From: Planctomycetaceae bacterium
GTDB taxonomy: Bacteria > Planctomycetota > Planctomycetia > Pirellulales > Pirellulaceae
Length of the DNA: 41,293 nucleotides
Direction of reading: 5' to 3'
Assembly: GCA_007694185.1 (NCBI GenBank)
Contig: RECD01000149.1
Coordinates: forward strand, 1 to 41,293
Of this stretch, positions 20,578-35,642 are shown piece after piece. A model generated the notes under the pieces. That model was given only the letters and a program-made list of their open reading frames with translations. It made no database searches and had not been told where the DNA came from. How positions within the stretch are numbered: position 1 is the first letter of the stretch; each line of letters begins with the position of its first letter. Made by a program: the position numbers and the translations under genes.

Positions 20578-20705
20578 CTGGAACCGGCCAAGTGGGGCGA
20601 TGGCGACCTGCGCGCCCGATGACGCACGCCAACCCGCTGGTAGGCTTCTGGGATGTATCGGTTGTAACGGTTGTAGGGTTGAGCCAATGTTTCGGAACCT
20701 CCGAT

Positions 20706-20734
20706 TTGACAGGTTTTTATTAACGAATCATGAT
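20706..20734 (+). promoter_or_regulatory. Candidate sigma70-type promoter
   Basis: TTGACA at 20706-20711, a 17-base spacer, and CATGAT at 20729-20734 (four of six matches to the -10 consensus), about 160 bases before the dockerin/HbpS start. The surrounding bases are unusually AT-rich. Planctomycete promoters often deviate from this consensus, so this is tentative. The rest of 20578-20893 shows nothing else recognisable. Confidence 0.3.
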
Positions 20735-20893
20735 GCGAGGTGGGTCCAACTGGGCGGTTTCGGCGGTTTTCCGTCAGCCGCCTCCCTTGCGGGCTATTCG
20801 CGAGGCAGACTTAACGTGGGCGGGCTCAGTGGTGCCGTTGCGAGCACCCTCCCACTTCTCTGACTTTTTCTTTGGCTCCGCGGGTCCGATCGA

Positions 20894-23416
20894 ATGAAGC
20901 GAAAACGATCGCGTCGGCTGCGGCTGGAACCGCTGGAAAACCGTCATCTGCTGACCGGGTGGCACAATCTGGTGTTGCCGCCGGACGTCAACGGCGATGG
21001 CGAAGTCACCCCGATCGACGCTCTGCAAGTCATCAACGCCCTTGCGCGTACCGACGGGACGTCGATCGAGCTGACGACCCCCGCCGGGCCGTCCGACCCT
21101 TTTTTGGACGTCGACAACAACGGATTCGTTACCCCGATCGACGCCTTGAAGGTGCTCAACGCGATCATCCAGCCGATCGAACCTTTGGATGCCGGTATCG
21201 ATTTGCCGGAGGCGGGTGGCGAGTACATGGGGCTCGTCGATCTGGAGAACTTCACCGCGTCGCTCGCGCCGCTCGATCTGCTGCCCGGCGGCTTGATGGA
21301 AGCGGCTGAAGTCGCGGTGCTGTTGGATCGAGCTTCGGCCGCTTCGCCATCACGAGACGGGATCATCGCGGTCGTCGATCGCGCGGGGCGGATTTTGGGA
21401 GTGCGGGTCGAGGCGGAAGTTGCCGCGTCGCTGCAAGCCGACCCGGACAAGTTGGCATTTGCGATCGACGGCGCCGTCGCGAAGGCCCGCACGGCCGCTT
21501 TCTTCAGCAGCAACTCGGCGCCGCTGACCAGTCGCACGGTGCGGTTCATCAGCCAATCGACGGTCACGCAACGGGAAGTCGAATCGGCACCCGTGCATGC
21601 CGACCCGCGATTTCGTGGCCCCGGCTTCGTCGCGCCGATCGGTGTCGGCGGCCAATTTCCGCCAGAGATCCCCTTCACTCCCCAAGTCGACTTGTTGGGG
21701 ATCGAACGCCAGAGCCGTGACAGCCGTTTTCATGCCGGTGAGGACGGGGTTCTTGGGACGGCCGACGATTTCGAATTGAACTTCCGGTTCAACGTCGACC
21801 CCGCCGCCATCCCGCCGGTGGCTGAGGACTTTTTTGAAGTTTGGCCGGAATCGTACGGGATCGTAACGGAAACGTCGCTAACCAGCCGGTCGCGGGGGAT
21901 CGCGACGCTGCCCGGCGGCGTGCCGCTTTACAAACGGGTTGACGGCGAGGTGAACTTGGTCGGCGGCATCGGGGTCTTCTTCCCTGGTGAAGAGGGCTTC
22001 GCGACTTATGAACAGGGCTTCATCCACGCTGATCTGTTGGGCGGGAAAGCTCAGACCGAGGCTTCGCGAACGAATGCCGATCGGGTGTTGGAAGCCGAAT
22101 TCATCGCCCTCGCCGCATCCGCCGGCGAAGGCATCTTGGGTCGCCCCGAATTCATGCGGGACGTGTCGGACATCAACGCAAAATTGCCGCCGCTGCCGAA
22201 TTTTGTCGCCTTGAACGGCCGCATCGATCTGGTCGGCATCACGCTAGAAATCTACGGCCCGACCCCCAGTCGCCAATTCCGTGTCCCCGGGATCGATCGG
22301 CTGTTGTCATTCGGACGAGCCCGGATCGGCAACCTGCCGACCCCCAGCGGCGTCGATGTTCCGGTCAACGCCGGCGGCGACCTGCATCTGGACGGCATGG
22401 CGGTCCCGCAAGGCTGGCTCGTCGCACCGCAGGATTCCCCGATCGCGGGTGGACTGAGTGCGGCCCAGGTCGCCGAGATGGTCCAGGCCGGGGTCGGACA
22501 AGCCAAGTTGACTCGCGCCGCGATCAGGCTGAAGCCGAACCTGTTGCCGGGGGCATCGACGCAGATGGTGTTCGCCGTCGCCGATACTCACGGCAACGTG
22601 TTGGGTGTCTTTCGGATGCCGGACGCCACCGTCTTTTCGATCGACGTGGCGATCGCCAAGGCTCGCAACACCGCTTATTACGCTGACCCCGCGGCCCTCG
22701 TTGTCGCCGATCGGGTCGATTTCAACGACGATGGGCTGTTCGGACCGATCAGCACCTCGTTTCAGCAGCCCGGCGATACCCTGCCCGTCGGCACGGCACT
22801 GACCAACCGCACCTTTCGGTTTTTGGCCGGGCCGCGGTTTCCGACCGGAGCGGAATTGCCTGGCAACGGCTTGACGCTGCAAGGGGCGACGGCGATCTGC
22901 GACCAATCGGCGACGCTCTGCGATCACGTGGGGCCGTTCAGCGGCTTGCGGCTGCCGGGGATCAATCCCTACACCGCGGAAAACGTCCGTGATCCGAACG
23001 TCCCCGGCGGGGAGTTGCCGCTGCCGTTTTCGGTCTACGCCGACCCGGCCCATTCCAGCCCACTCTTTTTTGACGCGTTCGTCCCCAGCCGTAACTTTCG
23101 CGATCCCGGTGACGCGGCGGTGATCGTGCAGGGAACGCTCGGTTCGCAACCGCTCGCTAACCAGAACGGCGTCGTCTTCTTTCCCGGCAGCACGCCGCTG
23201 TACCTGCGCGCCCCCGGCGACCCGCCGTCGGGCGGCACCCTGCTGGTCGGCGGCTTGGGGGTCAGTGGCGATGGGGTCGATCAGGATGACGTCGTGACTT
23301 TCGCCGCCCAGCGAGGATTTGAACCTGCGGAGGCGCTGCGAGCCGACCGGTTCATCGTCGGCGGCGTGCGGATGCCATACCAGAAATTCAATCGCAATCC
23401 CGGGTTGGCTGGATAA
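20894..23416 (+). CDS. Secreted protein: planctomycete N-motif, dockerin-like repeats and two HbpS/GlcG-like haem-binding domains
   Basis: 840 residues. The start RRLRLEPLENRHLL (residues 7-20) is the LEPLE-x-R-LL motif typical of large planctomycete exported proteins. Two calcium-loop repeats follow, DVNGDGEVTPIDALQVINAL (31-50) and DVDNNGFVTPIDALKVLNA (72-90), a dockerin-like pair. Residues about 135-222 (AAEVAVLLDRASAASPSRDG, IIAVVDRAGRILGVRV, AIDGAVAKARTAAFF) and about 515-640 (AAQVAEMVQAGVGQAK, FAVADTHGNVLGVFRM, DVAIAKARNTAYY) match the HbpS/GlcG family (PF03928-type), some of whose members bind haem or cobalamin. Each is followed by long loop regions containing FFPG and YLRAPGD motifs. 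It lies a gene away from the cytochrome operon, so a haem-related or redox role at the surface is an inference. Confidence 0.8.
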   Translation: MKRKRSRRLRLEPLENRHLLTGWHNLVLPPDVNGDGEVTPIDALQVINALARTDGTSIELTTPAGPSDPFLDVDNNGFVTPIDALKVLNAIIQPIEPLDAGIDLPEAGGEYMGLVDLENFTASLAPLDLLPGGLMEAAEVAVLLDRASAASPSRDGIIAVVDRAGRILGVRVEAEVAASLQADPDKLAFAIDGAVAKARTAAFFSSNSAPLTSRTVRFISQSTVTQREVESAPVHADPRFRGPGFVAPIGVGGQFPPEIPFTPQVDLLGIERQSRDSRFHAGEDGVLGTADDFELNFRFNVDPAAIPPVAEDFFEVWPESYGIVTETSLTSRSRGIATLPGGVPLYKRVDGEVNLVGGIGVFFPGEEGFATYEQGFIHADLLGGKAQTEASRTNADRVLEAEFIALAASAGEGILGRPEFMRDVSDINAKLPPLPNFVALNGRIDLVGITLEIYGPTPSRQFRVPGIDRLLSFGRARIGNLPTPSGVDVPVNAGGDLHLDGMAVPQGWLVAPQDSPIAGGLSAAQVAEMVQAGVGQAKLTRAAIRLKPNLLPGASTQMVFAVADTHGNVLGVFRMPDATVFSIDVAIAKARNTAYYADPAALVVADRVDFNDDGLFGPISTSFQQPGDTLPVGTALTNRTFRFLAGPRFPTGAELPGNGLTLQGATAICDQSATLCDHVGPFSGLRLPGINPYTAENVRDPNVPGGELPLPFSVYADPAHSSPLFFDAFVPSRNFRDPGDAAVIVQGTLGSQPLANQNGVVFFPGSTPLYLRAPGDPPSGGTLLVGGLGVSGDGVDQDDVVTFAAQRGFEPAEALRADRFIVGGVRMPYQKFNRNPGLAG

Positions 23417-23650
23417 ATCGAACCAGCCGGCAATGCGATCTGGCTTATCCGACGGCAAGCTATTTCAACCAGCCGTGCCGCCCCAACCGGGTGGAAACTT
23501 TACCGGCTGCGCAGGCTGGTCCCGTCGCGAGACCGAGTTTGGCGAGCCGCTCTCGGAACGACCGATACAACCGACACAAGGGTTCGAGACCGATCGGTTC
23601 GGTCATCCACTACCCCTTTCGGTTCGTTCCCACGTCGCGGACCCGATGGC

Positions 23651-24640
23651 ATGATGCGTGTCCGATCAACCGATATGGCTCAACGGCTCGCCGACAAGTC
23701 GCTCGCCCGCCAGAGGTCGCTGGTCGGCGGCGGTCCTCGCCCCGTCCGTGTAGCGCGGGTGCGATTTGCGCTGCGCCGCGTCGCGTTGGCCGGATTGGCT
23801 GCCGCCGGTTTCGGCATGGCCGGCTGGGGGATGACCCCAACGGCTCGAGGCGAAGAGGCTTGGTCTTTTTCGGACATCCCCGAGATCACGTTGACGCCGC
23901 CGATCGGGTCTGGACTGTCGAAGCAGGGCGGCGACATCGACACGCCGCCGAACGGCCGTCGGGAAGGTGGTGGGGACGCCCAACCCGCTCGACGGCCCAA
24001 ACCCAAGTGGAACGATCGAGTCGTCGACGAAACCGAATCGGTCTGGGCAGGTCCGATCCGCTGGGACGAAGTGAACGCCAGCGCCGAAGCGGAGCCTACG
24101 GCCGTATCGATGTCGCTCGATTTCGATGCACTTGAAGACCTCGGTTGGGACGACACCGACGCGACCGTATTCAAGGCGGAGGGCTTCAACTGGGAAGATC
24201 CCGAATCAGCCGATTGCAGCCCCGTCCATGCCGGCTCGGCCGACTTCGCCCACGAGTACCACGGCGGAATCAGCCTCGATCCAGGTTTTCCACGCAAGCC
24301 TTGTCGCGAGCTGCCGGGGGACGTCAACCGTGGCGCTTGCCCGCCCTATCGATATCAGCTCGACGATGACGAACGGGCCGGTTTGCCGCGGTGGGTGTTG
24401 CGGTTCGCCAAACCGTCGCTCAACCAACATTATTCCGGGTGGTACGTCGGTGGCGGAGCTGCTTTCGGCGGCCGTGGACGGTGCCCGGGCGAAGGGGTTT
24501 GGGGCATGGATTACCAAGGCTGGTTCCCCGTCCAGCGGGTCTGGATGAACTGGACCGGCGGACGGGTTCAAGGCGGCGAGGGGGCTTACCAAACCGACGG
24601 GCACGTCACCCCAACTCGGCCTTTCCGTCACGGTCGATGA
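23651..24640 (+). CDS. Secreted protein, unknown, Gly/Trp/Cys-rich C-terminus
   Basis: 329 residues from ATG 23651; ATG 23675 is also possible. The signal peptide (RRVALAGLAAAGFGMAGWG) ends near ARGEEAW. The mature chain starts EEAWSFSDIPEITLTPP, echoing GETFRFSDLP of the barrel protein. The middle is acidic and disordered in appearance. The last 120 residues contain five spaced cysteines and aromatic-glycine motifs (HYSGWYVGGGAAFGGRGRCP, GVWGMDYQGWFPVQRVW), perhaps a small disulfide-stabilised surface domain. Family not recognised. Its last 35 bases overlap the convergent end of the Fe-S gene. Confidence 0.65.
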   Translation: MMRVRSTDMAQRLADKSLARQRSLVGGGPRPVRVARVRFALRRVALAGLAAAGFGMAGWGMTPTARGEEAWSFSDIPEITLTPPIGSGLSKQGGDIDTPPNGRREGGGDAQPARRPKPKWNDRVVDETESVWAGPIRWDEVNASAEAEPTAVSMSLDFDALEDLGWDDTDATVFKAEGFNWEDPESADCSPVHAGSADFAHEYHGGISLDPGFPRKPCRELPGDVNRGACPPYRYQLDDDERAGLPRWVLRFAKPSLNQHYSGWYVGGGAAFGGRGRCPGEGVWGMDYQGWFPVQRVWMNWTGGRVQGGEGAYQTDGHVTPTRPFRHGR

Positions 24641-27320
24641 TCCGCAACAACTGCTCGCCGCTCATCCGATAGGCGGCGTCGTGCGGGCAGGCGTAGACGC
24701 AACTCGGTTTGCCGTCAAGGCTACGACACAGGTCACAGGTCGTCGCCTTTTGCTGGATGACCGGGATCTTGCGATCGCCTCGGTCTTCGTAAACCGGCTT
24801 CAACTTGCCGCTCCGCGGGTCGGCTTCTAATTTCGGAAAGCCGTGCATGTTGATGTTGCCGTAGGGACAATTCTGGGCACACAGCCCGCAGCCGATGCAG
24901 TAATCCTCGATGCGGATTTCCATCGAATCGCCGTTGCGATGGATCGCGTCGACCGGGCAGCCGACCAGGCAGTAGGGATCGAGGCACGACCGACAACTGC
25001 TGGCGACCAAGAAGCGATCGAACCGCAAGCCTTCGCGGACCAACCGGGTGACGCCGCCGTGGGTGTCCGCGCAAGCCTTCGTGCATTCGTCGCAACGGGT
25101 GCAGCGTTCCAGATCGAGCACCAACAGGCTTTGGCTGAGGAACAGCCCCTGATCGAGAAAATCGTCCGCTCCGACGACATCGATCTGTTTCCGCACCGCG
25201 TGCTCGCGCCGCAAGATCGCCCCAGCCGCCAAGACCATCGGCGCGAGCAATTGCGGGAAGCGTCGCATCAACTCCTCAAAGTCTTTTCCTCGGATACGGA
25301 TCAGTTCCACGTGATCGAGTGCCGAGTAGGTCGCGTTGTGCCGGCCGGCGGGGAGCTTCGATTTCACCGCGCCAGCGGCCGTTCCGAGCACCCCGTCCAC
25401 GCCGAGCGACTTGGTCAACAAGCCGACTTCGCCGAAGTAATTGCCAGGAGAGACGTATCCCAAGACCCGCTCCGAGACGCCGAACCGCTGGGTGGTTTTG
25501 ACGAACCCGAGCCGATTGATGTAGACCGCGTCGGCCGGTTCGTCTTGTCGGAAAATCGTTTGCCCCGGCTCGACCGATATCAGCCCCACGCGTTCCCGCA
25601 GGTACTCGGCCGCCTGCTGCCGCTGGTCGTCGTTCAAGCCTTCGAAGATCGGCAGCGACGCGAGCTGACCTTGCAGGCTGCGGTCGCGATAGACGCGATC
25701 GAGGAATTCGCGGGACACCTCATTCCGCCGGATCATGTAGAGCACGTTGCGACGGATCTCGACGACCGTGGACGGTTCGACCGCGACGACCGTGGCCGAA
25801 CGGGGGTAATTGTTCAAGCAGGTCATCTCACCCAAGATCACGTCGGCCGGGGTGATCTCGATCCGCACGTTCTCCCCGAGCTTCGTGCCGTTCAAGTCTT
25901 GAATCCGGGCGGTCGCGTTTCCGTCCTCCTGCTGGCCGCGGCGTTCCCAAAACCGCCAGAATCCTGAACGGCGTCGCGACTCCGCACGCCCCCGCGACTT
26001 GAGGCTGACTTCAAACCTCCCGTCGACAATCACGAACGCGGTCGAACCCTGCTCCCCTTCGCGGCACAACACCTCGCCGGCCGCGACCTTGCGGAGCTGA
26101 AAGGCGCTCTGGTTGAACTGAATGAACTTCGGCGGCAACCCCGAAAACAGCGGGATAGCGAGCAGCTCACGGACATCGACTTCGGGGCCGTCGGTTCCGC
26201 GATTGGCAGCCAAATAGGCAGGCTGGAATTCGAGCGCCCCGGTCGGGCAAGAGATGACGCATTCCCCACACGACACGCAGGAACTCTTCCCCATCGGGTC
26301 GTCCAAGTCGAACCCGATGTGGCTGGCATAGCCCTTGCCGAACTTGCCGATGACGTGATTCCCCTTGATCTGGTTGCAGCCACGCACGCAGCGAGCGCAG
26401 AGAATGCACTGGTCGGAATCGACGATCACCATGCGGCTGGAACGATCCCGCTTGGCAGGTGCGCCGGCAGGCGCGACATGGCGATCGCCCGTTCGGCCGA
26501 GCTGGCCCGTCTGACCGGCAAGCAGGTCTCCCGGACCGGACGAAAATCGGCTTTTCGAAATCCCCAACCGCTCGGCCAGCTTCGCCAATTCGTTGCCGAC
26601 GCCGGGAGTCACTGCGGCGGCCTTGGCAGGAGCGTTCGGTGCATCTTTACCAACCGGCGCACCCTTGCCACCGGGCTCACCCTGCTGGCCGGCTTTCCCC
26701 TCCGGCTCATCGCCACGGGCTTGCGGCAGGTGATCGGCGACCAGCAACTCGGCGAGCGTTCGGCAAGCGTTTTTGACCCGCGTCGCCGCTTCTGGGTTGG
26801 CACGACTCTGGATCGTGTGGACTTCCATCCCGTCCGTGACCTGCTGCACACAGGACGGCACGAGCTTGCTGCGAGTCCCGCGCCGAGTCTGCTCGACCGC
26901 CTCCACCATGCAGATCCGACAGACCCCCACCGGCGTCATGTGCTCGCGGTGACAGAGCGTCGGGATCGGGTGGACGTCGCCGGCCGAATGAACGAACGCT
27001 TCCGAAGCCGCGTCGTAAATCGTGGTCGGCCGGGGGATCGCGTTGCCCTCGGCGTCACAGCGGATCGAGCCTTGTGAATCGCGCAGCGGCATCGCCTTCT
27101 TGACGGTCACCGCCCGCCCGTCGATGGTCAACCGGATATCGGTGTCGAAGTCGGCGGCGGTGGAACTCTTGACCCGTACCAACCGCCCGTCGATGTCGCG
27201 GGCGAACAGCCCCTCGTCATCGAACGGTTTGGCGGACTCCTCGCCACCAGCCGAGGCCGCGGCAAAGTCGATCGTTTGGGTCGCCAATTCGCGGCGACGG
27301 CTCAGTTCCTCAGAATCCAT
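24606..27320 (-). CDS. Multi-cluster iron-sulfur protein with NuoG-like N-terminus and two cyclic-nucleotide-binding-type domains
   Basis: 904 residues from ATG 27320 (the longer frame adds an Arg-rich stretch). A NuoG-like [2Fe-2S] domain has Cys 123, 134, 137 and 157 (TLCHREHM, GVCRICMVE, VPSC). After a Gly/Pro-rich linker (200-295) come two [4Fe-4S] motifs, CILCARCVRGC (305-315) and CVSCGECVISCP (348-358). Two CNB-type domains follow (about 385-545 and 545-720), each with phosphate-cassette-like sequence: ILGEMTCLNNYPRSATVVA and YFGEVGLLT...RHNATYSAL. The C-terminal 160 residues resemble four-cluster B subunits of molybdo-oxidoreductases: CTRCDECTKAC, CRSCLDPYCLVGCP, CIGCGLCAQNCP and CDLCRSLDGKPSCVYACP. 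The His/Cys cluster of NuoG is missing. Last gene of a four-gene operon, overlapping the NuoEF-like gene by 11 bases. Role: electron wire from NADH:flavoprotein to haem proteins, possibly ligand-gated (inference). Confidence 0.9.
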   Translation of the reverse strand: MDSEELSRRRELATQTIDFAAASAGGEESAKPFDDEGLFARDIDGRLVRVKSSTAADFDTDIRLTIDGRAVTVKKAMPLRDSQGSIRCDAEGNAIPRPTTIYDAASEAFVHSAGDVHPIPTLCHREHMTPVGVCRICMVEAVEQTRRGTRSKLVPSCVQQVTDGMEVHTIQSRANPEAATRVKNACRTLAELLVADHLPQARGDEPEGKAGQQGEPGGKGAPVGKDAPNAPAKAAAVTPGVGNELAKLAERLGISKSRFSSGPGDLLAGQTGQLGRTGDRHVAPAGAPAKRDRSSRMVIVDSDQCILCARCVRGCNQIKGNHVIGKFGKGYASHIGFDLDDPMGKSSCVSCGECVISCPTGALEFQPAYLAANRGTDGPEVDVRELLAIPLFSGLPPKFIQFNQSAFQLRKVAAGEVLCREGEQGSTAFVIVDGRFEVSLKSRGRAESRRRSGFWRFWERRGQQEDGNATARIQDLNGTKLGENVRIEITPADVILGEMTCLNNYPRSATVVAVEPSTVVEIRRNVLYMIRRNEVSREFLDRVYRDRSLQGQLASLPIFEGLNDDQRQQAAEYLRERVGLISVEPGQTIFRQDEPADAVYINRLGFVKTTQRFGVSERVLGYVSPGNYFGEVGLLTKSLGVDGVLGTAAGAVKSKLPAGRHNATYSALDHVELIRIRGKDFEELMRRFPQLLAPMVLAAGAILRREHAVRKQIDVVGADDFLDQGLFLSQSLLVLDLERCTRCDECTKACADTHGGVTRLVREGLRFDRFLVASSCRSCLDPYCLVGCPVDAIHRNGDSMEIRIEDYCIGCGLCAQNCPYGNINMHGFPKLEADPRSGKLKPVYEDRGDRKIPVIQQKATTCDLCRSLDGKPSCVYACPHDAAYRMSGEQLLRIIDRDGKAELG

Positions 27321-29301
27321 TCGGCTGATCCCCCTCGAGGTCCGGCCCGCCGGCCGTGGATATTTCTTGCACGCCCGACGACGCCTCGTCTTCAGACATG
27401 CCACCGTCAGAGACTGTCGCGGCGGCGTCACACCGTGCCGCTACCAGGTCCGGAAAAAACCGCAGCAGCGTCCGCGCCGGGTTGCTGGCGACCTGACCCA
27501 ATCCGCAGATGCTGGTCGCTTCCATCACGCCGCCCAACTCCGTGATCACGTCACGAACCACGGGCAATTCGCCGGCCGCGATCCCGCCACGCTCGATCCC
27601 GCTGACCAACGACGTGATCTTTTCGGAACCGATCCGACAGGGGACACACTTCCCACATGACTCGTTGCGAAAGAAACGGCTGCAAGCCAACGCCTCAGCG
27701 ACGATGTCAGCCTTGGCGCCATAGACGACCAACCCCGCACCCAACATGAATCCCATCGCCCGCGACACGTTGATGTCGAGCGGCAGATCCCGAACATCGA
27801 CTTCCTTTACCCCTGCCCCAGCCAACGTCTTGGCGAAGCCGGAGGAAAACTGATCCGCGGGAATTTTCGCGGGCCACAACCCGCCGGACGGACCCGACAA
27901 CGCGACCGCCTGCGGCGGTTCCCCGTCGCGCATCCCGCCGGCATAACGGTCGATCAACTCGCCGAGCGTGATCGCCGTGGGGACTTCATAAACGCCCGGA
28001 CGGGCCACGTCGCCGCTGATCGAAAACAGCCGCCGTCCGTGGACCCTTTCCCCTTGGCCAGCAAGCTCGAACGGTCCGGTTTTGAACCCCTGATCACGGT
28101 ACCACGCCCCGCCCGACCGATCCAAAATCGCCGGAACCCAGGCGAACGTTTCGACGTTGTTCAATAGCGTCGGCTGATTTTGGTAACCGTTGGTCATCAG
28201 TTCCGGTGGGCGGTTGCGAGGCTCGGCTCGCTTATCCTCCATCGCTTCGATCAACGCGGTCTGCTCGCCACAGATGTACCCGCCCGGGCTGATGAAAACA
28301 TCCAATTGGAACGATTCGCCGGAACCGAGCAGGTCGTTGCCGAGCACCCCGATCCGGTTCGCACGCCGGATCTCACGCCGCAATCTTGCGATCTGTTCCG
28401 GGTACTCGTGCCGAACGTAGATCCAACCCTGATCGGCACCGACGACCAGTCCGCCCAGGATCATTCCTTCGATCACCAAGTGGGGATGTCGCAGCAAAAT
28501 TTCGCGGTCTTTGAACGTCCCCGGTTCGCTCTCGTCCGCATTGCATACGACGTACTTCGCTTTCCCCTCCGCCGCCAACACGTCGCCCCACTTCAGGTAG
28601 GTCCGTCCGCCGGCTCCTCCCATGCCGAGCAACCCCGCCGTTTCCAAAGCGGTCAACACACCCGCCGGGTCGGGGTCCTCCAGATAACGGCGAACGAGCC
28701 GGTAATCAGGCCGCTCGTCCGGGTCATTGCCGTACGGATCGATCTGCCACGCGGTGTCGTCTTTCGCGTTCCCTTCGCCAGGTCCCGCCTTCGCGATGCC
28801 GCTGGCCGCCGGCGGCGTCGACGCCCCATCCGGTCGTTGAGCCAGCGACCAATCGGAATCCGTGTCGGCGTCCGGTTGGCCTCCGTTCAGATACCGTCGC
28901 ACGATCCCGCACAAATCGTCCGCCGTGCGGCCGGCATAAAGCCGTTCGTTGATCAGCACCGCGGGGGCACGGTCGCAACGCCCCAAACAGGACACCCCTT
29001 CGATCTCGACCGTTCCCGCCGACCCCGGCGATCCCGCCGCTCCCGAGCCGGTGTTTTCACCGACTTCATCGTTGAGCCGCTCGATCAATCGCGTCGACCC
29101 GCGGAGGTGGCAACTCATGTCGCGGCAGACGTGTACCTGAACCTGGGGCGGCGGCGTGGTTCGAAAGTGCGGGAAGAACGAAACCAATTCTTGGACGCGG
29201 TACAGCGGCACGCCGCACTCGCGCGCGACGCGGCGTTGGTCCTCGCGAGTCAAATAACCGCCTCGCCGCTCTTGATAACGATGCAGCGCCGGAATGATCA
29301 T
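27310..29301 (-). CDS. Fused NuoE-NuoF-like NADH-oxidising flavoprotein
   Basis: 663 residues. The N-terminal 140 are a thioredoxin-like [2Fe-2S] NuoE domain: VHVCRDMSCHLRG then VSCLGRCDRAPAVLINE, giving the C-x4-C and C-x3-C pattern. A low-complexity linker (about 140-225) joins a NuoF domain with the FMN-site motif GMGGAGGRTYLKW, the NADH-site motif CNADESEPGTFKDRE, an SLBB region, and the [4Fe-4S] motif SCGKCVPCRIGS with its fourth Cys in SICGLGQVASNPART. So it should take electrons from NADH through FMN to Fe-S clusters. Fusion of E and F occurs in bidirectional hydrogenase and formate dehydrogenase diaphorase units, but no hydrogenase or formate dehydrogenase gene is here. Overlaps the cytochrome gene by four bases (ATGA), so expression is coupled. 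Confidence 0.93.
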   Translation of the reverse strand: MIIPALHRYQERRGGYLTREDQRRVARECGVPLYRVQELVSFFPHFRTTPPPQVQVHVCRDMSCHLRGSTRLIERLNDEVGENTGSGAAGSPGSAGTVEIEGVSCLGRCDRAPAVLINERLYAGRTADDLCGIVRRYLNGGQPDADTDSDWSLAQRPDGASTPPAASGIAKAGPGEGNAKDDTAWQIDPYGNDPDERPDYRLVRRYLEDPDPAGVLTALETAGLLGMGGAGGRTYLKWGDVLAAEGKAKYVVCNADESEPGTFKDREILLRHPHLVIEGMILGGLVVGADQGWIYVRHEYPEQIARLRREIRRANRIGVLGNDLLGSGESFQLDVFISPGGYICGEQTALIEAMEDKRAEPRNRPPELMTNGYQNQPTLLNNVETFAWVPAILDRSGGAWYRDQGFKTGPFELAGQGERVHGRRLFSISGDVARPGVYEVPTAITLGELIDRYAGGMRDGEPPQAVALSGPSGGLWPAKIPADQFSSGFAKTLAGAGVKEVDVRDLPLDINVSRAMGFMLGAGLVVYGAKADIVAEALACSRFFRNESCGKCVPCRIGSEKITSLVSGIERGGIAAGELPVVRDVITELGGVMEATSICGLGQVASNPARTLLRFFPDLVAARCDAAATVSDGGMSEDEASSGVQEISTAGGPDLEGDQPNGF

Positions 29302-32300
29302 CGTGCCCCCTCTCGATCCGCCAACCCAATCAACTCGTCTGCCAATTCGCCGAAAACCTGTCGGTCAAATCGCTCGGGGCTGTCCGATTCCCCCCGTTTC
29401 ACCCCATCCGTTTGGCCGAAACGCAACCGATCGGCCAAGCGGTCCAACACTTCCGCGACCGCTTGCGGATCAGCCGCCGGCGGACCGTCTCGCAGCGCCG
29501 CGTGAGCCCCGAGATACCACTGCGCGGCGTGATGCCAATCGGGTCGCCCGGCCGAAAGCGACTCCGATCCCGCGGACGCATCGACGGGAAAAGCTTGCCA
29601 AACCAGCCACTCGTCGGGCAACGGCGCGGGGTCGACCAACCGTTTCAACCAGCGATCCAAGACCGCTTCTGCCTCCCGTGTCGCCGCGGCGATCTCACCC
29701 GCCCCAGCGGCTCGCAACCGAAACGTCTCCATCGCCTTTTCCCACCGCGACGCGTCGAGCGGGAAGGCGGCGCCGAGCCTCGTGTCGTGCAAACCGGCTT
29801 GCAACCAGGCGTGCGGCGTCGGAAAACCAGGCCGCGGCCGGACGCCGACGTCGGCGATACGCAGCGGTTGATGGCAGGCGAAACAATCGTAATCCGACAA
29901 TTCCGGCCAAACCGCCGCCGGCACGACGGAGCTCTGACGCAGATCCTGAAATCGCTCGCCAGTCAACCGCACCGCCGCTCGCAGCGCGATCAGTCGCCCG
30001 ACCGACTGACGTCGCCGCTCCGACTCGCCATCGAGTGTCGCCAAACCGTCCGTCGGCAAATCACCGCCACCATGCAGCGGCAACCGCTGCAAAGCCGACC
30101 ACGGTTCGAACCGCAGCGCCGGGTGCCCGGCGGCGATCAAATCGTGATTCATGTCGCGGATCACACCATCCTCTCGCCGCGATCCGACATGACAACGGAC
30201 ACAGGTTTCGACCCGAGCCACATAGCGCCCCAAATCTCGCATCGGCGCAGTCACCTGCCAATCCGACTTCAAGTGAGGCTCCAACCATTCGGCCGCCGGC
30301 CCATGACAGGCTTCACAAGAAACCCCTTCCCACAACCCGGCCGAACCCACCTCCGCCGTGTCACGGTGCGAATGCTCACGAGGCGAATGACAACTGGCAC
30401 AACGTTCGGCCACCACTTGGTGAAACCGCTGAGCCGAACTCGCCGCGGTCGCGTCCAGCCCGATGACGATCCGGCGCGACCAATCGCCTGCTAAAGTCGA
30501 ACCGCTGCGGCCATGCGGGTCGTGAGCTTCGAATGCCGTCTGGCTGCTGTTCCAATGAGGAAACACGCCGTCCGAATCGGACCGCAGCGGCCCGCCATGA
30601 CAAGTGCTCGCCGCACAGGAATCTCGCCCCAACCAACCGCCCGATCGTGACTCGACCGCTTGCATCGTGGTGATCAAAGTCTGCGCAGCGGCCGAATCCT
30701 CACGACGCGAATCACCGTGCTCCGTCGGCGTAGGCAACGGCAGACGCTGCAAGCTCGAACCATGCAAAGTCAATCGGTGCAAATCCGGCTCAGGTCCCGT
30801 CAGCTCCCTCGCTTCCGGCGAAAACGGAATGCCCCCGCTCCCCCGCTGGTGATAGCTATGACATGTCGTGCAGCGATCCGGCGCGCGATCCGCCATGCCT
30901 CCGGTCAACGCCGCGTCGAGCGTCCGCTCCGGTTCGCCGCCACGATGACACGGCGTGCAGGAACCGATCCCGAGAATCATCGACGGATGATCGAACTGGC
31001 CGACCCATTGCGACCAAGCTGCCTGAGCAGTTCCCTCCAACGTCCGCCCCTGCGGATCGGCTTGCGGATGGCAGACGACGCACGACATCTCGCGATGGGC
31101 GGAATGGTCATAACGCCCCAACCGCAACGTCGGTCGTGGCGTCCGCGGCGAACCGACCAACCGATCGAGTTCCCCCGATGTGTGACAAACACGGCACTGC
31201 TGCTCGACCCCGCGAACCAAACCGTCCCAACCCGCAGAGGCCGCCGCCAAATCCGTTTCACTTGCCGATCGCCGCGACGCACCCGGCACTTCCGAGTTCG
31301 ACCCGCCACCCTCGCGGCCGGGAATTCGAAGCGGGAACGGATCGCTCGAACCGGTTGTCGTACCACCGGCGTCGCGCCGCGCGGCTCGCCGCGTTTCACC
31401 GCCGCCCAACCCCGCCACGGCGGCTCGCGCCACGAGCAATTCACGCAAGCGTTCCAGCGGCTGGCCGTGTGGCAGCCCGAATTGATCCTGTCGCTGACCC
31501 GGCGCCGTCAACGGATGGCAAGCGACGCAGTGCTGGTCGTACCGGATCGGCTGAGACACCGTACCCCAAACGGCTGATTCACCGTCACCCCGACCGCCCG
31601 CTCCGGCCATGCCAAAATCATGGCAGTCGGCACATGCCAATTGCACGATCGCGTCGTCAGCCTGGCCGTCGCGCCGATAACGCTCGCGGTGCTCCGGCGA
31701 CATCCGGTCGAGCCGCATCGCGCCCCGCCGCCCCTCGGCCACCTGACCGGGCAACATGTGCAACGCATGATCGAACTCGAACGGCCGCACGATAGCCTCT
31801 TCCGATTCCGATGAACCCCGCGCCTTTGACGATTCTCCTTTGTCGCCCGGCTCGCTCGCGTTTGCCCCGTCGCGGCGGAGACTGACCAACGATCGAAACT
31901 CCCCATGCCCGTCTTTGGTGAACCCGCTGACGTTGCCGATCGGCGCGGCCGACCCGGTCGCGTCCGCGGTCCGAAAGTTCGCCGTCTCGCGGTGGCAATC
32001 AATGCAAGTCCGATCGTCTCGCGGGATCAACCCGTGGGCCAAGCCGCGATGCTCTTGATGACAACCGGCGCAGGTCGAGTCGACTAGCGTGCCGGCGTCA
32101 TTCAGATTCGCGACGTGGTGGCCGACTTCACGATGACATTCGCGACACTTCGCCGCCGTCGCCTGAGCTGCCGCCGCCGGTTGCAATCGCCATGCGTTCG
32201 CGGCGATCGGCGTGAAGTCGACGTGACAGGCTTGGCAGTTCGTTTCCAGCGCCGCGTGCGCTCGCGACAAAGGCCCGGTGCTCAAGTGCCGCACCCCGGC

Positions 32301-32468
32301 CGGCGACCAACTGACCCAACCGAGGTACAGACCGATCGTGAGCGCAGCGAGGATCGCCCCGAACCATCGCCAGCGGTGATAGCGGCCGCGATCTCGGTAG
32401 TAATCGAGCCGAATCCGCCGGACCCGCATCTTCCCGGTCTGGTCGGTGGGGTCGATCAGTTCAGCCAT
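29298..32468 (-). CDS. Membrane-anchored multihaem cytochrome c, about 15 haem sites
   Basis: 1056 residues. A basic N-terminus and one helix (WFGAILAALTIGLYLGWVSW, about 35-54) anchor it with the bulk outside the cytoplasm. I count 14 CxxCH motifs: CQACH, CRECH, CAGCH, CIDCH, CADCH, CVACH, CRVCH, CVVCH, CTPCH, CTTCH, CASCH, CEACH, CVRCH and CFACH, plus one CAASTCH (C-x4-CH). The first ten form a cytochrome c3/doubled-CxxCH-like part. The last five, starting at SCAASTCHGG, form a cytochrome c554-like part ending DMNHDLIAAGHPALRFE and YDCFACHQPL, and are homologous to the exported cytochrome at 34017. So the gene looks like a fusion. It sits between a cytochrome b-like membrane protein and an NADH flavoprotein, supporting a role as transmembrane or periplasmic electron carrier. 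Acceptor unknown. Confidence 0.93.
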   Translation of the reverse strand: MAELIDPTDQTGKMRVRRIRLDYYRDRGRYHRWRWFGAILAALTIGLYLGWVSWSPAGVRHLSTGPLSRAHAALETNCQACHVDFTPIAANAWRLQPAAAAQATAAKCRECHREVGHHVANLNDAGTLVDSTCAGCHQEHRGLAHGLIPRDDRTCIDCHRETANFRTADATGSAAPIGNVSGFTKDGHGEFRSLVSLRRDGANASEPGDKGESSKARGSSESEEAIVRPFEFDHALHMLPGQVAEGRRGAMRLDRMSPEHRERYRRDGQADDAIVQLACADCHDFGMAGAGGRGDGESAVWGTVSQPIRYDQHCVACHPLTAPGQRQDQFGLPHGQPLERLRELLVARAAVAGLGGGETRRAARRDAGGTTTGSSDPFPLRIPGREGGGSNSEVPGASRRSASETDLAAASAGWDGLVRGVEQQCRVCHTSGELDRLVGSPRTPRPTLRLGRYDHSAHREMSCVVCHPQADPQGRTLEGTAQAAWSQWVGQFDHPSMILGIGSCTPCHRGGEPERTLDAALTGGMADRAPDRCTTCHSYHQRGSGGIPFSPEARELTGPEPDLHRLTLHGSSLQRLPLPTPTEHGDSRREDSAAAQTLITTMQAVESRSGGWLGRDSCAASTCHGGPLRSDSDGVFPHWNSSQTAFEAHDPHGRSGSTLAGDWSRRIVIGLDATAASSAQRFHQVVAERCASCHSPREHSHRDTAEVGSAGLWEGVSCEACHGPAAEWLEPHLKSDWQVTAPMRDLGRYVARVETCVRCHVGSRREDGVIRDMNHDLIAAGHPALRFEPWSALQRLPLHGGGDLPTDGLATLDGESERRRQSVGRLIALRAAVRLTGERFQDLRQSSVVPAAVWPELSDYDCFACHQPLRIADVGVRPRPGFPTPHAWLQAGLHDTRLGAAFPLDASRWEKAMETFRLRAAGAGEIAAATREAEAVLDRWLKRLVDPAPLPDEWLVWQAFPVDASAGSESLSAGRPDWHHAAQWYLGAHAALRDGPPAADPQAVAEVLDRLADRLRFGQTDGVKRGESDSPERFDRQVFGELADELIGLADREGAR

Positions 32469-32518
32469 GCGTCAGTTCGAAACGGAAAACGTGGAAAAGG
32501 GTTCGCTACCGGTATTGG

Positions 32519-33544
32519 CTACCAGTAACGGAGCGCGAAAAAGATGTGAGCGACCAGCAGCACGCAGAGCCCGACGGAAAAGGCGATGTGGAACGGCAAC
32601 CAGGCGTGCAACCAACCGTGCATCCGCCGCTGCAAATGGAATTGACGCCGTTGGTCGGCTAACCGCTCCAACGGCCCGATCACCCGTTCCGCCTCCGCCG
32701 AACAGGCCCGTCGCAACAACCGAAACCAACCCGTCGCACGGCTCGCGTCGCCGAACACCTCGCCACGCGTCGCCCCGTCCAGCAGGAACGGCCTTAATTC
32801 ATCATAAGCCACCCACAGCGACCGCGCGTCGTCCCGCTGCTCGCCGCCTCCCGTCACACCTCGCCCCTTCGTAATCCCCGACTGACCGGCAAACCGCTCC
32901 CGCCGTTCCGCGTCCCGCGGCGCGCCGATGACGATCATCCGCGTCATCTCGGCGCTCCCCTGCTCCCCGAGCAGCTCGCGGAACCGAGTCAGCTCCGCGT
33001 CTCCCAATTCCATCGTCATCACCGAGTCACGCGGCCCGCAAGCCGCGACCATCATTTGGTCCGCATCTGTGACCAACGACGCCGCGACCCGATCGATCTC
33101 GCCAACGATCGTCTCCGCCGGCAACCGCTTCCACATCGCCGTGGGAAGCACGTTCTGCATGATCAAGCCGAACACGCCACTGAACACCGTGAGGATCAAC
33201 AGCACCAACAATAAAGTCGTCAGCCAACCGCCGAGGTGCCATCCCGAGTGAACCAGCCCCAGCGGCAGGCAGGCGAATCCGAACCACAGGTGAGCCGACA
33301 TCCAATACTTGGTCGGCAGCAGACGCATCCGCCGCAAAGCCTTCCGAGGCCACAACAGCATCTCGAACCCGATGATCGCGGCCGCGACGACGCCCAGCAC
33401 CAATCCTGGCAAGCTACCGCCGCCCAACCACACGCCGGCCGACCACGATTCGAACCCATACCAACCGATCAGTCCGATCGTCATCGCCAAGGCCAACAGG
33501 GCCCATAGCAGATGAAATCGCCAACTGTACCGGTCGATCAACAT
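32519..33544 (-). CDS. Five-helix His-rich membrane protein, cytochrome b-like
   Basis: 341 residues. Four helices lie at about 9-30, 42-65, 80-104 and 105-132, then a soluble region of about 170 residues and a fifth helix at 310-338. Histidines are placed as for membrane haem: His 85, 99 and 103 in helix 3 (MSAHLWFGF, GLVHSGWHLGG), and His 309, 313, 319 and 333 in helix 5 (MHGWLHAWLPFHIAF, VAHIFF). This recalls cytochrome b561- or ferric-reductase-like proteins, without a clear family match. It is the first gene of the operon, 50 bases before the large cytochrome. Likely a quinone- or haem-linked membrane partner that passes electrons across the membrane; haem binding is inferred only. Confidence 0.75.
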   Translation of the reverse strand: MLIDRYSWRFHLLWALLALAMTIGLIGWYGFESWSAGVWLGGGSLPGLVLGVVAAAIIGFEMLLWPRKALRRMRLLPTKYWMSAHLWFGFACLPLGLVHSGWHLGGWLTTLLLVLLILTVFSGVFGLIMQNVLPTAMWKRLPAETIVGEIDRVAASLVTDADQMMVAACGPRDSVMTMELGDAELTRFRELLGEQGSAEMTRMIVIGAPRDAERRERFAGQSGITKGRGVTGGGEQRDDARSLWVAYDELRPFLLDGATRGEVFGDASRATGWFRLLRRACSAEAERVIGPLERLADQRRQFHLQRRMHGWLHAWLPFHIAFSVGLCVLLVAHIFFALRYW

Positions 33545-33615
33545 TTAGAGGTCCACTACCGCTAACCAATCCCGATCACGACAACCAGATCACACTAAGG
33601 ATCGTGCGGGAAATG

Positions 33616-33680
33616 AGTGTCCGGTACCTTCTGCGAGGAACTCGCCCTCAGGGTGCCTTGCACAAAAGGTTCCGGACACT
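33616..33680. repeat. Inverted repeat GTGTCCGG(t/a)ACCTT
   Basis: Arm 33616-33630 (agtgtccggtacctt) matches the reverse complement of 33666-33680 (aaggttccggacact) at 14 of 15 positions, around a 35-base centre that has its own small hairpin (ccctcaggg), and is followed by a T-run. Similar phrases recur in planctomycete genomes, so this may be a REP/MITE-like element; it might also act as a terminator. Confidence 0.55.
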
Positions 33681-33897
33681 TTTTTACCGCTCATTGCTAA
33701 TCAGCGGCACCGCCCCAACAACAAGTGGGCCCCGCTCCGCGAAACATGCTACCCCGACCGGCCGGCATCCCATCGCCTCGACGCCCGCGACATGGCATCC
33801 GACCAAAACTTTTGGAACACGCGCCATCATCTTCGCGCCAATCGACTCAAACGGGCAATCCTGCCCCATCATCGCAACCGATTGCCGACGCTCCGTT

Positions 33898-33927
33898 TGC
33901 CCATGACCAGCGGAGAGGTAGTCTAAT
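33898..33927 (+). promoter_or_regulatory. Weak candidate promoter for the exported-cytochrome operon
   Basis: TTGCCC (four of six) at 33898-33903, an 18-base spacer and TCTAAT (five of six) at 33922-33927, about 90 bases before the chosen start. Tentative. Confidence 0.22.
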
Positions 33928-34016
33928 CTTGGGCAGACGCGCGCTGTTGCCCTGCTTGTCACATTCATCCTTTCGTGGCCCGTCCGTGCTCCTTTGTTCC
34001 TTGCGAGCCGCATCTG

Positions 34017-35642
34017 ATGGACGCTCATCCAAAACGGCTACCTCCCCGCCGGCTACCTGTCCGCTGGCTCCCCGCCATCCTGGCGACGATCCTCTGCTCG
34101 CCCATCAGCTTCGCCGACGAAACCGTACCGACTCAGGGCGTCGGCGGACGCGTCGCGCCACTCTACCACCGCGACTGGGAACCGATTTCAGCGGCTAGCT
34201 GCGCCGCTTCCGGTTGCCACGGCGGCCCCCGACCCGGCGTTGCCGATCCCGCTAGTGGCGGCCTGTCCGCTTACCCGCTCTGGTTGGAACGCGATCCTCA
34301 CGCCCGCGCCTGGGATTCACTCTGCAAACCCGACGGCGTGGCGATGATGAACCGCCTCGGGATCCTGGTCGACGGCCAGATCGCCGACCTCGCCGGGTTC
34401 AACAATTGCCTCGCCTGCCACAACACGCATCAAGCCGATTCGTCCGACTTGGGAAACGCCCCCCGCCAACCCGAAGGGGTCGGCTGTGCCGCCTGCCACG
34501 GACCGGCCCAACAATGGGTCCACGAACATTACTCCGCCGACTGGAACCCAGCGGCGGCTACCCGCAGCGGATTCGTCCAGAACGCCGACCTGGTGACCCG
34601 CGCCCGCATGTGCGCGTCCTGCCATGTCGGCGACCAAGACCGTGACATGAACCATGACCTGATCGCCGCCGGGCATCCGCCGCTGCGGTTCGAGATGGCG
34701 TCTCACCATTCCCGCCTCCCCAAACACTGGCGCGACGCCGGTGCAAACGAATCCTCCGAGGATGCCGCCGATTTCGAGTCGCGTCTGTGGGCCGCCGGCG
34801 CGATCGCTTCCGCCGACGCCTGGCTCGCTCTCACTTCCGCCCGCGCGCAAGGCCATACCTCCGTCAGCACCTGGCCGGAACTGGCGAGCTACGATTGCGG
34901 CTCCTGCCACCAAAATCTTCGGCTCGCGACCGGCGACGCCCTCAGCGATCCCGAGCGACGAGGCGCGGCCAAACTGGCAAGCTGGGACCTGGCGCCGCTG
35001 TCGTACCTTACTCACGCCCATGCCCCGTCTCGCTCCGTGCGACGCTCCGATGCAAGTCTTAGACAACACGCCAACTCAACGAACGCAGGCGATTTGCAGA
35101 AGGGTCTCGAATCGCTGCGCCGCGAACTCGAACGGATGACGGTCGCGAACCCAGACCGTGTGGCGGAACTGACCGCGGAACTCCGTGACCTCCTGCCGGC
35201 ACTGGCGGCGGATTCCAGCCGATTCCATCAAGCCGCCGCTCCGGATTTGCAGGCCTGGTTGACGACGATCGGTCGCGAAACCGACCCGACACGCAGTTGG
35301 GAATCGGCGAGCCAGTTCTATTTGCTGTTGGCCGCGACTCGTCACAAATGGCCTGTGCCGCGCCAAGCCGAGCTGACCGCCCATGCTCGCAGGATCCGCT
35401 TCGAACTGGCACTCCCAGACGGACTCGATTCGCCCCGCTTCCCTCACGCCGGATCAGGGAAACTTGTCCAGCCTCGCGAATCGCTCAAACAGCATATCGA
35501 ACGCTTCCTAGCTACATTGAATGACAACGGGTCGCTCCCCAGCCCGAACCGCTCGTCCGCGTCCGCCGTTTCCCTTTCGGGCTTCAACGCTTCACCCGTC
35601 CTCGTCCCGGGTCCGCAGGATGTCGATTTCCATGCCAACTAA
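34017..35642 (+). CDS. Exported pentahaem cytochrome c (cytochrome c554-like)
   Basis: 541 residues from ATG 34017, which gives a clean signal peptide (WLPAILATILCSPISFADE); a GTG at 33975 would bury it. Haem sites in order: SCAASGCHGG (C-x4-CH), NCLACHNTH, GCAACHGPA, MCASCHVGD and DCGSCHQNL. Between the fourth and fifth is DMNHDLIAAGHPPLRFE, whose histidines may serve as distal ligands, as in the cytochrome c554 group (inference). The C-terminal 180 residues are haem-free and helical. The layout copies the C-terminal half of the large cytochrome at 29298. First gene of the divergent operon, overlapping the next by 11 bases. Confidence 0.9.
   Translation: MDAHPKRLPPRRLPVRWLPAILATILCSPISFADETVPTQGVGGRVAPLYHRDWEPISAASCAASGCHGGPRPGVADPASGGLSAYPLWLERDPHARAWDSLCKPDGVAMMNRLGILVDGQIADLAGFNNCLACHNTHQADSSDLGNAPRQPEGVGCAACHGPAQQWVHEHYSADWNPAAATRSGFVQNADLVTRARMCASCHVGDQDRDMNHDLIAAGHPPLRFEMASHHSRLPKHWRDAGANESSEDAADFESRLWAAGAIASADAWLALTSARAQGHTSVSTWPELASYDCGSCHQNLRLATGDALSDPERRGAAKLASWDLAPLSYLTHAHAPSRSVRRSDASLRQHANSTNAGDLQKGLESLRRELERMTVANPDRVAELTAELRDLLPALAADSSRFHQAAAPDLQAWLTTIGRETDPTRSWESASQFYLLLAATRHKWPVPRQAELTAHARRIRFELALPDGLDSPRFPHAGSGKLVQPRESLKQHIERFLATLNDNGSLPSPNRSSASAVSLSGFNASPVLVPGPQDVDFHAN

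Follow-up and report, generated by a model that had tools for sequence, protein, structure and literature searches.

Gene content of the locus and its four core proteins

The DNA analysed here (the window) is a stretch of 41,293 nucleotides from a member of the family Pirellulaceae deposited as Planctomycetaceae bacterium (assembly GCA_007694185.1, contig RECD01000149.1). Its central feature is a set of four minus-strand genes at 24606-33544 encoding a five-helix transmembrane (TM) cytochrome b, an anchored 15-haem c-type cytochrome, a NuoE-NuoF fusion (NuoEF) and an iron-sulfur (Fe-S) protein with two cyclic-nucleotide-binding (CNB) domains (Table 1). The initial annotation had proposed these genes as one NADH-to-haem electron-transfer operon. 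The open reading frames (ORFs) lie where it had placed them, and its spacing (a 50-base gap, then overlaps of 4 and 11 bases) was measured at the same values, the 11-base overlap following from the preferred ATG start at 27320 within an Fe-S ORF that spans 24606-27431.

Table 1 Genes and other features of the locus, core set first.
Feature	Position	Strand	Remark
Five-helix dihaem cytochrome b (TM protein)	32519-33544	minus	
Membrane-anchored 15-haem c cytochrome	29298-32468	minus	MHC10 decahaem and CYT4-family pentahaem modules
NuoE-NuoF fusion	27310-29301	minus	FMN site, N1a-type 2Fe-2S, N3-type 4Fe-4S
Fe-S protein	24606-27320	minus	NuoG-like N-terminus, two cNMP-binding domains, four C-terminal 4Fe-4S
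Intergenic region	33545-33974	none	Separates divergent transcription units
Secreted pentahaem cytochrome cytA	33975-35642	plus	CYT4 family: four CxxCH and one CX4CH
Secreted pentahaem cytochrome cytB	35521-37551	plus	CYT5 family
Barrel-like protein POR	18508-20577	minus	Outer-membrane type; weak Alginate_exp match
Planctomycete surface protein	20894-23416	plus	Extracellular motif below cut-off, dockerin, HbpS-like domain (Pfam)
Conserved protein	23651-24640	plus	No Pfam or NCBIfam match; relatives near POR in genomes G017 and G025

Both halves of the predicted NuoE-NuoF fusion were found by domain scan, NuoE as a 2Fe-2S thioredoxin-like domain and NuoF as an FMN domain with SLBB and 4Fe-4S domains, and this NADH module matches complex I subunits with scores under the NCBIfam equivalog cut-offs. 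The window NuoF reads GGAGGRTYLKW where GGAGF-x-TG-x-KW is usual, and GEQ where GEE is usual. Across an alignment of 51 sequences (the window protein, 49 of the 54 NuoEF proteins and an outgroup from locus L043), Gln is found at position 347 in 17 of the 18 sequences without the Phe and in none of the 33 with it, while most of the acidobacterial NuoF sequences listed retain the canonical Phe. This covarying pocket change (residues 232, 235 and 347; Phe lost, Glu replaced by Gln), present in 17 of the 51 including the window, may mark a shift towards NADPH. A Glu at this pocket position governs the choice between NADH and NADPH in Escherichia coli NuoF. A report on Aquifex NuoF places E95, E97 and E184 of that protein near the nucleotide via water (PMC6560083). 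The module expected of an NADH-oxidising enzyme is thus present, but NADH itself is uncertain as the donor because the nucleotide pocket of the window NuoF is altered. In the outgroup locus (L043, 9565-14244), NuoEF adjoins a protein read by eye as an NAD-linked formate dehydrogenase. HydB-type bifurcation was considered and rejected: 27310-29301 has no Fer4 match and hence no C-terminal ferredoxin domain, which on a NuoF-like subunit is a feature of bifurcating diaphorases of the HydB/Bfu type.

The Fe-S protein, with Pfam matches to Fer2_4, Fer4 and cNMP_binding, carries groups of Cys that fit one 2Fe-2S and six 4Fe-4S clusters, in keeping with the initial description of a many-cluster protein with two CNB-type domains. 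In an alignment of 88 sequences, about 70 of which include the N-terminal part, the 2Fe-2S Cys lie at 123/134/137/157, two 4Fe-4S sets at 305-315 and 348-358, and four C-terminal 4Fe-4S sets at 740-878, where each Cys is kept in 85-88 of the 88. Similarity to formate dehydrogenase, HydA and NuoG chains is seen at the N-terminus, to protein kinase A (PKA) regulatory subunits in the middle and to HycB-type four-cluster proteins at the C-terminus. For the His-Cys3 (N5) motif of NuoG, no invariant Cys was found between C157 and C305 among six sequences. Within the CNB domains, E498 (88/88) and R507 (86/88) of CNB1 and E631 (80/88) and R661 (78/88) of CNB2 correspond to the Glu and Arg of the phosphate-binding cassette, which contact the nucleotide in related domains, and the retention of these ligand residues in nearly all relatives suggests regulation by a cyclic nucleotide. 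Two Cys within CNB1 that lie outside the cluster motifs, C419 and C501, are each conserved in 80 of the 88 sequences and could form a redox switch.

The cytochrome b has no Pfam match of its own. Its AlphaFold2 model (mean predicted local distance difference test (pLDDT) score 87.8) contains five long helices that are read as membrane-spanning, its helices including those at 8-36, 45-62, 78-99, 107-140 and 283-340, and four His (H85, H99, H319 and H333) are invariant in 62 of 62 TM proteins (the window protein, 54 of the 58 length-filtered named proteins and seven further sequences), which agrees with the His-rich five-helix membrane protein initially described. Bis-His haem pairs are proposed at H85/H319 and H99/H333. 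The loop at 63-78 carries on average 5.0 Lys and Arg and 0.0 Asp and Glu in these 62 sequences, which by the positive-inside rule would place it, and likewise the large domain at 141-312, on the cytoplasmic side, with H85/H319 therefore towards the cytoplasm and H99/H333 towards the periplasm; by model and loop charge together, the four invariant His sit at matching depths. At E values up to 0.1, the 62 relatives gave matches to DUF4405 (25), Ferric_reduct (9) and Ni_hydr_CYTB (8), with none for the window member, and NrfD was matched neither in this set nor in the eight window proteins scanned. Foldseek searches with the cytochrome b model (best E 0.67) and the decahaem model (pLDDT 74; best E 5.0) returned no convincing structural relative, and second looks at the two models with VIA-align gave best Z scores of 9.1 (root-mean-square deviation 8.0; helical bundles with no evident kinship) and 2.9.

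The anchored cytochrome, recognised by domain scan as a multihaem c protein and equipped with one N-terminal hydrophobic segment, holds 14 CxxCH motifs and one CX4CH motif at residue 618, and the initial count of 15 haems is correct once the latter is included. The position of the CX4CH motif is conserved in 49 of 49 members of the CYT4 family, to which the C-terminal pentahaem module and the related cytA belong; the MHC10 and pentahaem modules are encoded by separate genes in G017, as they are in L062-L069 among other named loci. In the MHC10 module (44 of 50 proteins aligned with part of the window protein), ten CxxCH motifs and ten further His are invariant in 45 of 45 sequences. Similarly, CYT4 (49 sequences) and CYT5 (nine sequences) have five haem motifs and five further His, each conserved in at least 90%. 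In these alignments the haem motifs are matched by an equal number of further conserved His, as in electron wires, and a catalytic haem in MHC10, CYT4 or CYT5 was rejected because of this equality in number. Matches of the MHC10 profile extend to HmcA, at E 5e-7 to 8e-7, and to ActA, at E 6e-10.

Conservation, distribution and genome setting

Co-conservation was examined in 60 genomes (the window's own included) and, with the Fe-S alignment as query, in named genomes, where the best 80 of 114 confirmed relatives were kept as the basis of the locus counts. Among the 60 genomes, matches covering both halves of the Fe-S protein were found in every genus member but G001 (78% complete), four of five in all, in another member of the family (G017) and in a member of another family of the same order (G057). 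The whole four-gene set together with cytA and cytB is present in G004 and G017, where the cytA and cytB relatives are divergent neighbours, and G057 has genes for the TM protein, MHC10, NuoEF and the Fe-S protein as well as a CYT4 gene, with no cytB match found in the stretch. The contigs of G002 and G003 end inside NuoEF. In G007, cytA and cytB relatives follow MHC10 beside a different CNB protein, and NuoEF was not seen in the stretch.

The 80 loci belong to the Planctomycetota, the Acidobacteriota and, by record title, one or a few members each of the Rokuibacteriota, Methylomirabilota, Deltaproteobacteria and Spartobacteria; NuoEF is missing from both Spartobacteria loci. All four genes occur together in 48 of the 80, from the Planctomycetota and Acidobacteriota to a few further lineages, and 37 of these 48 also have a CYT4 gene. 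The genes follow two orders, with TM-MHC10 first in 26 loci and NuoEF-Fe-S first in 22; retention of the set through this rearrangement points to function rather than inherited order, and its recurrence in other phyla argues that the arrangement is not due to chance. Between any two of the four proteins, the matrices of pairwise distances show correlations of r 0.87-0.92 across the 41 loci in which all four fall within length limits (0 of 2000 permutations as high).

The linkage between NuoEF and the Fe-S gene is particularly regular. Wherever NuoEF is present (64 of 64 loci) it precedes the Fe-S gene in the same orientation, with a gap of at most 285 bases and, in 14 of them, an exact 4-base overlap. 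It occurs in 64 of the 67 loci whose Fe-S protein has the NuoG-like N-terminus versus none of the 13 without it; the three exceptions are one locus with room for the gene (L078) and two where the contig ends (L079 and L094), and of the 13, four have Fe-S genes cut by a contig end, two have less than 1.4 kb upstream and seven have at least 3.3 kb. As NuoEF tracks the NuoG-like N-terminus in this way, NADH entry looks like a plug-in module. In two loci (L092, 5121-8060, and L093, 4905-7823), the stretch holds NuoEF and an Fe-S/CNB protein but neither cytochrome b nor MHC10, and the two adjoin a divergent protein of ~975 aa that is FAD-linked-dehydrogenase-like by eye, and this pair may serve other partners. 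Several Pirellulaceae genomes hold a 'B' set, related to but distinct from the four-gene set, of a ~600 aa CNB/Fe-S protein, a cytochrome b and a 10-haem protein of ~650-860 aa, with no NuoEF; the set is also seen at L038, L039, L047, L050 and other loci, with a cytochrome b of ~280 aa.

The initial annotation envisaged a route bypassing complex I, which does not hold for this genome. A search that was positive in 11 of 14 control genomes found no NuoD in it (99% complete) or in its four genus relatives G001-G004 (78-95% complete), which leaves no complex I that could be bypassed; NQR2_RnfD-family matches lie on two contigs. Across the 60 genomes, an A- or B-like Fe-S match (E 1e-20) was found in 14 of the 17 without NuoD versus 12 of the 43 with it, relatedness not being controlled. 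The same NuoD result led to rejection of the possibility that the locus is part of a complete complex I. PF01512 has just two matches genome-wide, the window NuoF and a second ORF, which was rejected as another NADH dehydrogenase since it reads as RnfC beside a pyruvate:ferredoxin-oxidoreductase-like ORF (named by eye).

Neighbouring genes and candidate outer-membrane partners

The four genes stood as a co-conserved set, but the unit is larger than the one initially proposed, extending to the cytochromes at 33975-37551, the genes at 18508-24640 and a cytochrome with LVIVD repeats on another contig. The gene at 23651-24640 converges on the Fe-S gene and overlaps its 3' end by 35 bases. The POR neighbourhood is shared by G003 and G057, with the surface protein conserved beside POR. 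In G017, relatives of the surface protein with dockerin and HbpS-like domain, of the 23651 protein and of the barrel are clustered immediately ahead of the 10-haem LVIVD cytochrome. The surface protein thus travels with the barrel in all three genomes, and may be a haem-related surface partner. In G025 a single row runs from a partial MHC10 match (at the stretch edge) through CYT5, CYT4, a relative of the 23651 protein and the barrel to the LVIVD gene. Among named loci, the barrel lies within 200 bases of the LVIVD gene in 14 of the 17 having that gene, the misses being at the edge of a fetched stretch (L106), at a contig end (L136) and 441 bases away (L117).

Of ten genomes examined, eight have the LVIVD cytochrome (~1180-1430 aa, ten haem positions), among them the window's own, on contig C25, and the two in which it was not found are G001 and G010; G010, G016 and G031, which have only the B set, are without it. 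In 21 sequences it has ten haem-motif His and 14 further conserved His, an excess that makes an open haem site possible there, and a Protein Data Bank (PDB) sequence search with it returned nothing at E 0.1. A sample of 292 genomes of the phylum, searched at E at most 1e-60 with few candidates scored per genome, contained the Fe-S protein (A- or B-like) in 24, the LVIVD cytochrome in 26 and both in 18, that is, LVIVD in 18 of the 24 genomes with the Fe-S protein versus 8 of the 268 without (odds ratio 97.5, P 8e-18, without control for relatedness). Of nine sampled genomes with the NuoG-like N-terminus, eight have LVIVD and the ninth (G099) has a weak match only (E 4e-23); G243, which matches in two pieces (118-511 and 665-852), is left out of the nine.

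Elsewhere in the window lie MnmG/GidA (5009-6961), an L-lactate permease (6978-8774) and a lactate-racemase (Lar_N) domain protein (10621-11889).

A candidate route for electrons and its alternatives

The locus represents a real and widely shared redox assembly of known modules in a new, apparently undescribed combination. The peripheral arm of complex I (NuoE, NuoF and the NuoG N-terminus) shares the NADH/FMN/N1a/N3 module and the NuoG-like 2Fe-2S domain, whereas here no NuoD was found, two 4Fe-4S sets follow the 2Fe-2S and the neighbours are dihaem b and c cytochromes. Similarly, HoxFU, HydAB and formate dehydrogenase alpha/beta pair a NuoEF-like diaphorase with a HoxU/HydA/FdhA-like N-terminal Fe-S domain, whereas here no hydrogenase or molybdopterin domain matched and the remainder consists of CNB domains and a HycB-like four-cluster domain. 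Hmc-type complexes and alternative complex III share multihaem c (through the MHC10 matches to HmcA and ActA), in contrast to the absent NrfD match and the cytoplasmic NuoEF arm found here. The CbcL/MtoC/MtrH type combines a dihaem cytochrome b with multihaem c, and both parts are represented at this locus, as separate genes. CbcL/MtoC/MtrH and ImcH are quinol oxidases of extracellular electron transfer that take electrons from quinol (PMC6295460). They share with this locus, as a likeness of architecture, a membrane cytochrome with multihaem c on an outward route, and are set apart from it by the cytoplasmic NAD(P)H/Fe-S arm found here. Porin-cytochrome conduits (MtrCAB, OmbB-OmaB-OmcB) resemble it in gene layout, in that a barrel-like gene adjoins a large multihaem cytochrome; a putative verrucomicrobial example is described with a periplasmic cytochrome of eight haem sites (PMC5615132), whereas the adjoining cytochrome here is an LVIVD protein with ten haem positions. 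Of the papers listed by searches of an open-access library, none describes this gene combination, judged by title and abstract opening, and 'undescribed' is provisional because most subscription papers and all preprints fall outside that scope. Neither of the outcomes that would undermine the initial proposal, namely a lack of co-conservation or a match to a characterised complex, was seen.

On balance, these parts probably form a modular trans-membrane complex that carries electrons from NAD(P)H through Fe-S clusters, haem b and haem c to the outer face under a cyclic-nucleotide switch; we infer its assembly, carrier order, direction, nucleotide, control and extracellular end point from the conserved ligands, linkage and co-occurrence described above. 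NAD(P)H would be oxidised at the FMN of the NuoEF fusion and electrons would pass via N3 to the clusters of the NuoG-like N-terminus, then to the four C-terminal 4Fe-4S clusters of the same protein, the cytoplasmic-side haem b (H85/H319) and the periplasmic-side haem b (H99/H333). From haem b they would enter the anchored decahaem and pentahaem c modules, and soluble pentahaem cytochromes may ferry them to the outer-membrane barrel and the 10-haem LVIVD cytochrome, with an extracellular or outer-face acceptor as the putative end point. Binding of a cyclic nucleotide to the two CNB domains would switch the complex. Support for the route is good up to the periplasmic haems and weaker beyond them.

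Several observations weigh against this route as a whole or in part. The window NuoF lacks both the Phe of GGAGF and the second Glu of GEE, and the window CNB2 carries H661 where 78 of the 88 sequences have Arg. In the 38 roomy loci with the NuoG-like N-terminus, the stretch is without the TM protein in six, MHC10 in eight, CYT4 in 12, the barrel in 26 and LVIVD in 27. Common descent contributes to the distance correlations, which do not rule out plain shared ancestry. The barrel call is a sub-threshold Pfam match (Alginate_exp in 4 of 17 members; the window protein below cut-off at E 2.7e-5), the barrel protein had no solved-structure match in a PDB sequence search, and the window barrel is without an adjoining 10-haem cytochrome, the LVIVD gene lying on another contig with no barrel beside it in the fetched stretch. 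Eight genomes (G071, G084, G106, G123, G153, G168, G171 and G176) have LVIVD and no Fe-S protein at the cut-off. In addition, electron flow from cytoplasm to periplasm spends membrane potential for a benefit that is not obvious, and a redox-balancing or overflow role tuned by a cyclic nucleotide would therefore be expected rather than main energy capture.

In another outcome, an unlikely one in our judgement, the same complex and route would end in the periplasm, where soluble cytochromes would pass the electrons to a reductase or oxidase, and the barrel and LVIVD protein would have some other role. Only 12 of the 38 roomy loci have the barrel and 11 have LVIVD in the stretch, and the LVIVD gene is unlinked in this genome; set against this are the genome-wide co-occurrence of LVIVD with the Fe-S protein and the row of haem, barrel and LVIVD genes in G025. 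Less probable still is reverse flow, in which periplasmic or extracellular donors would reduce NAD(P)+ through the haems. All parts are reversible carriers, and flow from periplasm to cytoplasm builds membrane potential where outward flow spends it, but donors near or below -320 mV, or coupling, would be required for NAD(P)+ reduction, and no ion-pumping family matched among the eight window proteins scanned. Finally, the dihaem b could be a quinone enzyme exchanging electrons of NADH and the c haems with membrane quinone, as in formate dehydrogenase-N or CbcL, and some relatives do match DUF4405 or Ni_hydr_CYTB weakly, b561-type subunits often having a quinone site, but we regard this as improbable, as the invariant His at two depths fit a straight relay (though compatible with a quinone site) and NADH:quinone transfer may already be covered by the NQR2_RnfD genes.

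Returning to the outward route, a broader version can be offered tentatively and is perhaps doubtful in its entirety: a quinone-independent NAD(P)H-to-outside complex, spread over several phyla, with the cyclic nucleotide acting on the electron-carrying subunit, interchangeable NuoEF input and barrel/LVIVD output, and part of the Planctomycetota shifted from NADH towards NADPH. The whole set is found in cultured-strain records of Aporhodopirellula aestuarii (L064), Rhodopirellula sallentina (L066), Rubripirellula obstinata (L067), Roseiconus nitratireducens (L068), Neorhodopirellula pilleata (L069) and Tautonia sociabilis (L080), which makes it testable. If the proposed route is correct, bacteria of sediments, lakes and soils would possess an unrecorded entry point at which cytoplasmic NAD(P)H empties straight into haem chains of the periplasm or the cell exterior, with neither quinone nor complex I involved. 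Inference of respiration and redox balance would change for the Planctomycetota and Acidobacteriota, many of which are known from genomes only, and the CNB domains would make this a directly signal-controlled electron-transfer enzyme.

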